Assembly (NCBI GenBank): GCA_025058315.1
Contig: JANXET010000005.1
Location: 1 to 64,000, forward strand
DNA: 64,000 nt
DNA from: Candidatus Bathyarchaeota archaeon
Lineage (GTDB): Archaea; Thermoproteota; Bathyarchaeia; Bathyarchaeales; Bathycorpusculaceae
Reading direction: 5' to 3'
Below the pieces are notes generated by a model that ran no database searches, was not told where the DNA came from, and saw only the letters and a program-made list of their open reading frames with translations. The first letter of the stretch is position 1. Each line of letters begins with the position of its first letter. Position numbers and translations under genes: made by a program. Positions 24,685 to 27,110 of the stretch are shown piece after piece.

Positions 24685-25824
24685 ATGCGGTTAATGCTTA
24701 GTTGTTCTGAGCTTGGGCTGGGACATGTTACCAGAATTACGCTCCTCGGAAGGGAGCTTGAAAGAAGGGGGCATGAATTGTTTCTCTATTCTGGAGGCGG
24801 AGCCTATGAGCTTTTAATGAGAGAATTTAAAAGCGTCTTCCATTGTACACCCGTGTCTTGGTATGAGAATGCTTATGGCATAATAACCTCAGCGTCAATC
24901 CTCAATATTCTATTTCCTATGCCCTACATCGATTATGAGAAAGAAAAATTTGCAATAAAAAAGCCAAGCAGTATAGAAACAGTTCATCGGTATTATGATC
25001 TTCGAAGGAGAATCCTGCAGATCAAGCCTGACCTGATTATTTCAGATGGCGACCTGCATTCACTGCGTTTAGCAAGCAGATGGAAGATCCCATCCATATA
25101 CGTGACAAACCTCATAAGACCAAGTGTGGGACTTTTACCCTTACTTATACCTGGTGAAAGATTCACTGAACGCTATGTGAAGAACTGCTCTAAAATAGTA
25201 GTTCCAGACAACCCGATGCCCTACACGATATGCGAATACAACTTAGGTAACTTGGAACACATAGGAATTGAAGATAGTGTCGAGTTTGTAGGAAGCTTTT
25301 TCGACATGACTCCAGTGGAAGGAGAAGATAAACATATTTTCGCCTCAATAAGCGGTCCTGTAGGCACAAGAGTCAGGCTTATGAAGACGGTTATTCCAGT
25401 TTTGAGCGAAATGAAAATGCAGAGCATAGTGAGCCTCGGAGAGACTGGAAAGAAGGTTAAGATAAAAGTTGGTAACTGCACCATTTACAGTTGGCTAACG
25501 CCGAAAGAAAGACGCGATTTTATTGCTAACTCCAAGGTTGTTATTTTCAGCGGCGGGCATAATACTTGCTTTGAAGTGATAAAGTATATGAAGCCAAGTA
25601 TTTGTATCCCCACGCAGCCGGAGCAGCTGGCAAACGCTAGAAAACTACAGGAGTTAAACTGCGCGATAATTGCCGCAAATAAGAAACAGCTTGCGCACGC
25701 GATACAGGAAATGATGAATAAAGGGGACTTCTATAGGAGAAACGTGCGGATGCTTAATAAAATTTCGGAAAAGTTTAGAGGCCTAGACGGCGCTTTGAGA
25801 GTAATTGAAAGCATTAGCGGTTAG
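24685..25824 (+). CDS. GT-B fold glycosyltransferase (MurG/GT28-like)
   Basis: A 379-residue protein. The N-terminal [26 protein letters not shown] is the donor-independent glycine-rich motif of GT1/GT28 enzymes, and the C-terminal [22 protein letters not shown] with [11 protein letters not shown] is the nucleotide-sugar binding site. Archaeal members probably glycosylate lipids or polyprenyl carriers, but the substrate is not readable. It overlaps the stop of the convergent AMMECR1 gene by 4 bases. Confidence 0.82.
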
Positions 25825-26450
25825 GTTTTTACATCTAGAACTCTGCGCTTTACCTTGCCCTTTGGAGATTCCTCCTCGAAGATGATAGCTTGAAAGGTGT
25901 ATACTTTTGTCCCTTTCATAAGCCAGCAGTCCGGCGGAAGCCCGGCTTTAAGGCAGCATTGGCAAAGGAACTCCTCCTCGTTCCAGCCCCACTCAACGGG
26001 AACCTGAGGAAGCAGCAGCCCTTTATAGAAGCCTCTTTCAATGATTAAGCCGTCTCTTCCAACCCTGATTTTAGACGGATAATCCGTGGGCTTCTCTACT
26101 TCCACCATCATAGGCGGGGTTAGGACGCTTACTTCAAAAACTATGCTGTCAAGCTCTTTCTTTGAAAGCGGCGGGAAGCGCGGGTCTCCTGTCGCTGAAC
26201 TTATTGCGGAGTCGATAACAGCCTCAATTAATGGTGACGAAGGGTATGGATAGCCAATACATCCCCGTAACTCTTTCCCATCATCTACAACTTTATTTAT
26301 AGTTACAAAAACTCCGCAGGGTTGCAGCAGCTTTTCAGGAGTTTCATCAGGGGCTTTTATCCGTTTTCCATTTTTTAAGTACTCTTCCACCGCTGATCTG
26401 GCGAGTTTAACTAGTAAAATGCCTTCCTCAAGGCTTAAATCGAAGGACAA
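25821..26450 (-). CDS. AMMECR1 domain protein
   Basis: A 209-residue protein. [14 protein letters not shown] is the family signature; [28 protein letters not shown] and [16 protein letters not shown] complete the pattern. The biochemical function is unknown, though AMMECR1 often co-occurs with MEMO and radical SAM proteins. It follows the proteasome gene on the same strand by 30 bases. Confidence 0.93.
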
Positions 26451-26480: not shown

Positions 26481-27110
26481 CTAAAATTTTATTGATTCCT
26501 CTCGAGTTCCATCCTTGGTTATTATTAGGAAATCTATGCCGTCGCCGCTCATTATATCCCTACTAATTGCGGATTTTATTGCCCGAGTAACCAAATTCCG
26601 GCCTTCTTCAAGACTCATGCCATTCCTGTATCCCTCTTCAAGCACACCCATGGCTATCTCGGTTCCAGAGCCTACAGCAGCGTATTTGTCAGGTATAACT
26701 GAACCCAGCAAATCAAGCACATACAGCGATGCACCCTCGTCATCCATTCCACCTACTATTGTCTGAGTTATTAGCGGCGTGAGCCTATTGGCGAAAAGCA
26801 AGTTTGACATTAGCTTAGCGGCTGACCTCACCGAGATTGATCTGCCAACGTCTAGATTATATAGATTCACGTAGGCTTCCACTTCTCTTAACAGGATCTG
26901 CATGTCAGAAACAAGTCCTGCGCAGGCTGCTCCAATATGATCAGTTATCTTGAAAACTTTCTTGCCGCCGCGGCTGACAACGAGGTAACCATAGGAAATA
27001 CGCTTCTCAGAGGCTAGAATCACACCATCCCCGCAAACTAGCCCAACTGTTGTTGCTCCAGGGATCCACAAGTATTGTGACATTTGGCTTTCCTTTTCCA
27101 AGAATTTCAC
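26481..27110 (-). CDS. psmB: proteasome beta subunit lacking the catalytic threonine
   Basis: A 209-residue Ntn-hydrolase subunit. In active subunits the propeptide ends Gly-Thr-Thr-Thr-Val-Gly; here it reads GATTVGL, so Thr1 is Ala (GCA at 27054-27056, minus strand). Counting from that alanine, Glu17 and Lys33 are kept. The rest (AAVGSGTEIAMGVLEEGY, VTRAIKSAISRD, GDGIDFLIITK) is typical. Without Thr1 it cannot self-cleave its propeptide or cut peptides. Two-beta-subunit proteasomes with one inactive type are known in Crenarchaeota, so it is likely structural. Start is ATG at 27110, or the ATG nine codons later. Confidence 0.9.
   Translation of the reverse strand: MKFLEKESQMSQYLWIPGATTVGLVCGDGVILASEKRISYGYLVVSRGGKKVFKITDHIGAACAGLVSDMQILLREVEAYVNLYNLDVGRSISVRSAAKLMSNLLFANRLTPLITQTIVGGMDDEGASLYVLDLLGSVIPDKYAAVGSGTEIAMGVLEEGYRNGMSLEEGRNLVTRAIKSAISRDIMSGDGIDFLIITKDGTREESIKF

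Follow-up and report, generated by a model that had tools for sequence, protein, structure and literature searches.

What is a proteasome β subunit for when the threonine with which it should cut is missing? The window analysed here, a stretch of 64,000 nucleotides from a Candidatus Bathyarchaeota genome, holds a β subunit gene whose position 1 is read as alanine, and the reading admits several explanations, from an error in the assembly to a shifted active site or a subunit that serves the particle without cutting. We consider it very probable that the gene encodes a conserved, dead 20S β subunit, an orthologue of Saci0662 of Sulfolobus acidocaldarius, that it goes back to a single duplication before the Thermoproteota radiated and that its product is the majority subunit of a mixed ring.

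The gene and its active-site register

The argument draws on the following features.

26481 to 27110, minus strand: open reading frame of a proteasome β subunit in the window, from direct reading and translation
26481 to 27101, minus strand: inert proteasome β gene (psmB-like), 206 amino acids, with a probable TTG start at 27101
27057 to 27101, minus strand: N-terminal extension of 15 residues, MEKESQMSQYLWIPG, from the translation
27054 to 27056, minus strand: GCA codon, Ala replacing the catalytic Thr1, from direct reading
27006 to 27008, minus strand: Glu17 codon; all 81 Bathyarchaeia genes have Glu (the best 80 of 139 relatives plus the window)
26958 to 26960, minus strand: Lys33 codon; Lys in 81 of 81 genes of the same set (best 80 of 139 plus the window)
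26547 to 26558, minus strand: Asp166/Ser169 motif DIMS, kept despite the missing nucleophile at the site
25821 to 26450, minus strand: AMMECR1-family gene (Pfam PF01871, 195.7 bits), 30 bp downstream of the β stop codon

The start is probably the TTG at 27101 rather than the GTG at 27110, because ATG, GTG or TTG occupy that column in relatives. The frame translates to ...SQYLWIPG-ATTVGLVCGDGVILASEKRISYGYLVVSRGGKKVF, and the product scores 234.7 bits against TIGR03634, the profile of archaeal 20S proteasome β subunits (cut-off 224), and 179.5 bits against PF00227 (cut-off 22.4). The AlphaFold model (pLDDT 83.6 and pTM 0.82, with residues 1–17 of low confidence) has the Ntn-hydrolase β fold, with Z scores of 24.5–25.8 against solved β subunits among the 50 matches listed.

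An earlier note on this DNA had read the cleavage-site motif as Gly-Ala-Thr-Thr-Val-Gly, with Ala for Thr1 and with Glu17 and Lys33 in register. Both readings hold: the residues are P-G-A-T-T-V-G, with the codon GCA at 27056–27054, and the register is correct when counted from Ala as position 1. Were the first Thr instead position 1, Glu17 and Lys33 would slip by one, and the structural alignment also sets Ala there, as residue 19 of the model (Ala) superposes on residue 1 of active β subunits, for example 8g6e_I and 1ryp_I. An alignment with the first Thr at position 1, which the earlier note had named as counter-evidence, is not what is seen. The subunit keeps Glu17, Lys33, Ser129, Asp166 and Ser169 (the last two in Thermoplasma numbering). 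Judged as a catalytic β subunit, it thus has the acidic residue 17 and Lys33 and lacks the N-terminal nucleophile Thr1.

The substitution and the predicted fold were obtained directly; their consequences we infer. With the nucleophile missing, the subunit would neither cleave itself nor act as a peptidase. The 15-residue extension of the Bathyarchaeia protein probably stays on, without autolytic removal, because the Thr1 needed to cleave it is absent; its residue −1 is Gly in 81 of 81 and its residue −2 Pro in 80 of 81 Bathyarchaeia genes (again the best 80 of 139 plus the window). The catalytic residues other than Thr1 are perhaps kept since they also hold the fold or a neighbor's site.

Saci0662 and the composition of the β ring

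The closest PDB match of the window β subunit is 6z46_H, which we take to be Saci0662 of S. acidocaldarius. The inert β subunit of one genome of family f28 (G132) agrees with 6z46_H at 189 of 189 residues. As encoded in that genome, the N-terminus runs ...LEELPA and then TAIG, and the 6z46_H match begins only at that Thr; thus, native Saci0662 carries Ala1, and the crystallised chain begins at Thr2. Common descent with the window gene is indicated by another f28 sequence (L215), which lies inside the inert clade of the tree described below (100/99). The two proteins share that clade, Ala1, Glu17, Lys33, Asp166 and Ser169, and the company of an active β and an α subunit. They differ in that Saci0662 is 46% identical to the window protein, has an extension of about 5 residues rather than 15 and carries Pro rather than Gly at residue −1. 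In addition, assembly with α and lack of peptidase activity are reported for Saci0662, whereas the Bathyarchaeia protein is known from its sequence.

Those reports come from Anjum et al. 2015 (PMC4569737), of which we draw on parts. There, both S. acidocaldarius β subunits were termed catalytic homologues with the equivalent threonine in both, and the propeptide of Saci0662 was cut at that threonine, which by the present alignment is Thr2. The α subunit with truncated Saci0662 gave a 28-mer, a complete barrel, with no activity; Saci0909 did not co-purify or assemble with α in the absence of Saci0662; and all three together gave an active particle in which Saci0909 was present at a lower ratio. 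The discussion of that paper calls the first β subunit "seemingly catalytically inert," which is explained by Ala at position 1, the Thr taken for catalytic being Thr2. Taking off the N-terminal extension of Saci0662 stabilised the particle, so that an extension that stays in place cannot simply be assumed to do no harm. Inert archaeal β subunits are therefore already known from Sulfolobus, and the window gene adds another of that sort.

By orthology with Saci0662, and from this reconstitution, the most likely role of the window subunit is that of a non-cutting scaffold of a mixed β ring. The dead subunit would form most of the ring and contact the α ring, an active subunit with the motif GTTTVG would occupy fewer positions, and with fewer active subunits the particle would have fewer than 14 cutting sites. 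Another two-β archaeal proteasome has β1 of Pyrococcus furiosus as its stability subunit. The mixed proteasome with fewer active sites that the earlier note had envisaged thus finds support in the experimental precedent of the orthologue, as far as the consulted parts of PMC4569737 go. Two reviews (PMC13022661 and PMC12650242), in the parts consulted, describe archaeal β rings as typically built from a single subunit, with 14 active sites.

Two other arrangements deserve consideration. First, the dead subunits could build separate all-inert barrels that exist next to active ones and act as chambers for holding or unfolding, as might be suggested by the complete 28-mer that formed from α and truncated Saci0662 alone. 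This seems improbable because, in the same parts of PMC4569737, Saci0909 needed Saci0662 to assemble with α, and active particles would then need the inert subunit. Second, the subunit could still be a protease whose register has shifted so that Thr2 is the nucleophile; the inert copies read retain Thr2, and in the S. acidocaldarius study the equivalent Thr was regarded as catalytic. Against this, the spacing to Glu17 and Lys33 and the structural alignment give Ala as position 1, active β subunits keep Thr2 equally, and a Saci0662 chain that starts at Thr2 assembled without activity (PMC4569737, in part), so that we reject the shift as very improbable.

Conservation and origin within the Thermoproteota

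When named genomes were scanned, 139 relatives of the window gene were confirmed; the best 80 of these were analysed, their titles being Bathyarchaeota or related groups (Bathyarchaeum, Bathycorpusculum, MCG, Hecatellales) with one "uncultured archaeon." Ala1, Glu17, Lys33, Asp166 and Ser169 are present in 80 of these best 80, and position 129 is Ser except for Thr in 6. Counting the window as well, Ala1 is encoded by GCA in 35 genes, GCC in 28, GCT in 9 and GCG in 9, and this use of all four GCN codons fits selection keeping Ala itself. The dN/dS ratio against the window is 0.027 and 0.039 in two of seven comparisons, dS being saturated in the other five. GCA and ACA are one base apart, and the earlier note had allowed for an assembly error, but the chance that assembly or sequencing turned ACA into GCA is negligible in view of Ala in all of the best 80 relatives, by four codons, and of an Ala1 clade that stays separate in a tree built without positions 1–3. 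Nor is there any appreciable likelihood that the gene, its nucleophile gone, is a decaying pseudogene or a neutral relic of a duplicated β gene, as Lys33 and Asp166 are kept in every distinct inert copy read, dN/dS is about 0.03, the TIGR03634 score lies above the cut-off and just a few among the best matches listed have an internal stop. One Bathyarchaeota assembly (DRTY-6_2_bin_115) has two Ala1 β genes, L037 and L045, on separate contigs, from a duplication or a mixed bin.

If the window subunit is dead, another must cut, as the earlier note had argued. A PF00227 search of the source genome (1.3 Mb, 94% complete; G000) found three genes: the inert β gene, one α gene (L002, contig C3) and a second β gene (P0002, L001, contig C44) with GTTTVG, Asp17 and Lys33. 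This active β subunit and the euryarchaeal ones have their fold, length, Lys33 and Asp166/Ser169 in common with the window protein. Compared with active archaeal β subunits, the window protein lacks Thr1, has Glu17 rather than Asp17, as do nearly all inert copies, and falls in a separate clade.

The same pairing recurs well beyond the Bathyarchaeia. Each β query matched 200 of 200 Thermoproteota genomes, with α genes counted among the matches, and β genes were read from a subset of these genomes picked to span families. Position 1 of the 153 distinct inert copies is Ala in 146, Gly in 6 and Ser in 1, although the inert and active labels were set by the motif itself, so that the absence of Thr is partly definitional. 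Lys33 and Asp166 are present in 153 of 153, and residue 17 is acidic in 152, mostly Glu; all 103 distinct active copies have Thr1, Asp17 and Lys33. Among the 31 sampled families outside the window's class (f14–f44), an inert β gene was found in 29 and an active one in 31. The inert gene was not found in f29 and f33, with one genome each (G104 and G117, 82 and 77% complete), where there was an active β gene and a weak α-like match only; conversely, the active gene was not found in G073 and G153 (93 and 96% complete), which had an inert β gene and a weak α-like match only. With these exceptions, the pair is not proven universal in the phylum. Nevertheless, the sequences support a dead β subunit with Ala1, beside an active one, as a trait that recurs throughout the Thermoproteota. 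The interpretation in the earlier note is supported, and this spread goes beyond what that note could see.

Conservation and the paralogue pair are observed directly in the genes, as is the single origin of the inert copies in the trees. The labels are checked independently by trees built without positions 1–3, which divide the same rows. In a 37-row tree of this kind (18 inert and 17 active copies with two euryarchaeal β subunits, α excluded), the inert clade has support of 100/99 and the active clade 97/91. A quick 107-row tree splits 48 active and two euryarchaeal rows from 56 inert ones at 99, and in a FastTree with extra rows the inert copies remain one group at 89. Rows more than 56% identical to a kept row were dropped from the 37-row tree, and gappy rows or those more than 72% identical from another row set; α (L002), L274, L264 and L240 were left out of some trees as long or odd. 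Rooting the β tree on α was discarded, as the α branch has 5 changes per column and is placed among the inert rows; with α there, the inert label needs 2 changes in the 107-row tree. That the inert β subunits form one clade points to one duplication before the radiation of the Thermoproteota, after which one copy would have lost Thr1 and stayed so.

Several further β genes stand apart. L264 (G092, f28), a member of the inert clade, has Ser1 and Val17; Ser can serve as a nucleophile, and this copy may have kept or regained some activity. Five genomes in three Thermoproteota families (G139, G074, G079, G105 and G221; loci L319, L320, L321, L322 and L323) carry a second pair, a TTIVG β gene with Asp17 and Lys33 intact and a divergent α-like gene, which together may possibly make a second proteasome. 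In family f9, of the same order as the source genome, the active β subunits L307, L310 and L312 form a divergent, well-supported group with KATTTLAL or KLKGTTTVAF, and are about 50% identical to the active β subunit of the source genome, unlike the near relatives of the latter. The active β subunits L267, L269, L270 and L271 of f22 and L282 of f36 have Met immediately before TTT and seem, to judge from this, to be made without a propeptide.

The AMMECR1-family gene is a candidate lineage-specific partner of the inert β gene, outside the core argument. Of 108 Bathyarchaeia loci with enough flanking sequence, 86 have it as the next gene downstream of the inert one, in the same orientation. In the further loci, it follows the inert gene in 16 of 16 from the same family, 7 of 15 from the same order, 0 of 4 from the class and 0 of 29 from the phylum, and it was not found beside the active β gene in any of 85 loci, these further and active-β counts being of loci, some of which repeat a gene.

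Relation to the inactive β subunits of eukaryotes

The human β ring also has inactive subunits, β3, β4, β6 and β7, and in our best trees they join the archaeal inert clade. The reviews cited above (PMC13022661 and PMC12650242), in the parts consulted, place the inactive eukaryotic subunits as duplications within eukaryotes. An alternative is that the duplication of the β gene and the loss of Thr1 from one copy go back to an ancestor that Thermoproteota and eukaryotes share, so that β3, β4, β6 and β7 would derive from the dead archaeal subunit and β1, β2 and β5 from its active sister. We put this forward tentatively, as a supported reading that is somewhat less likely than not.

In a 43-row tree, in which long branches meet, the four inactive human subunits group with the inert copies of archaea (97/92), whereas β1, β2 and β5 fall on the active side. 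The grouping persists without β4 and β7 (94/86), with β6 and β2 only (96/81) and when the positions of the active site and pocket are masked, leaving 156 columns (94/75). Column log-odds favor the inert side for β3 (+56 bits), β6 (+41) and β7 (+13), and the active side for β4 (−6), β1 (−52), β2 (−32) and β5 (−32). With profiles that omit positions 1–3, the inert profile is preferred by β3 (+28 bits), β6 (+9) and β7 (+5), with β4 at −3, and for β1, β2 and β5 the active profile scores higher, by 19–29 bits. In phmmer searches, the best match among higher eukaryote chains is PSMB1 (β6, inactive) for the inert β subunit, with a plant "beta" chain slightly higher, and PSMB7 (β2, active) for the active one.

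Other results weigh, in whole or in part, against the link. AU tests do not reject a tree with all human β subunits together (p = 0.244, 0.106 and 0.282). In quartet analysis under LG+F+G4, 57% favor the link to the inert clade, 29% all human subunits together and 14% another arrangement, with 41% unresolved; the resolved quartets number 1422 for the inert link versus 534 and 173, and those with β7 lean slightly toward all human subunits together. Moreover, human β subunits all have Asp17, as do active archaeal ones, and the inactive human subunits are more diverged than the archaeal inert copies.

In the literature searched, consulted in part, we found no statement of the phylum-wide breadth, the Ala1 signature or the eukaryotic link, although Gille et al. 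2003 or Tarrason Risa et al. 2020 may already report some of it.

The retention of a dead β subunit across a phylum implies that mixed rings, with fewer cutting sites, are probably present in many archaeal proteasomes. If the older split were true, the eukaryotic heteromeric ring would have inherited, rather than invented, its division of labor. The Ala1 β subunits make the origin of the inactive eukaryotic β subunits directly testable using Asgard sequences.
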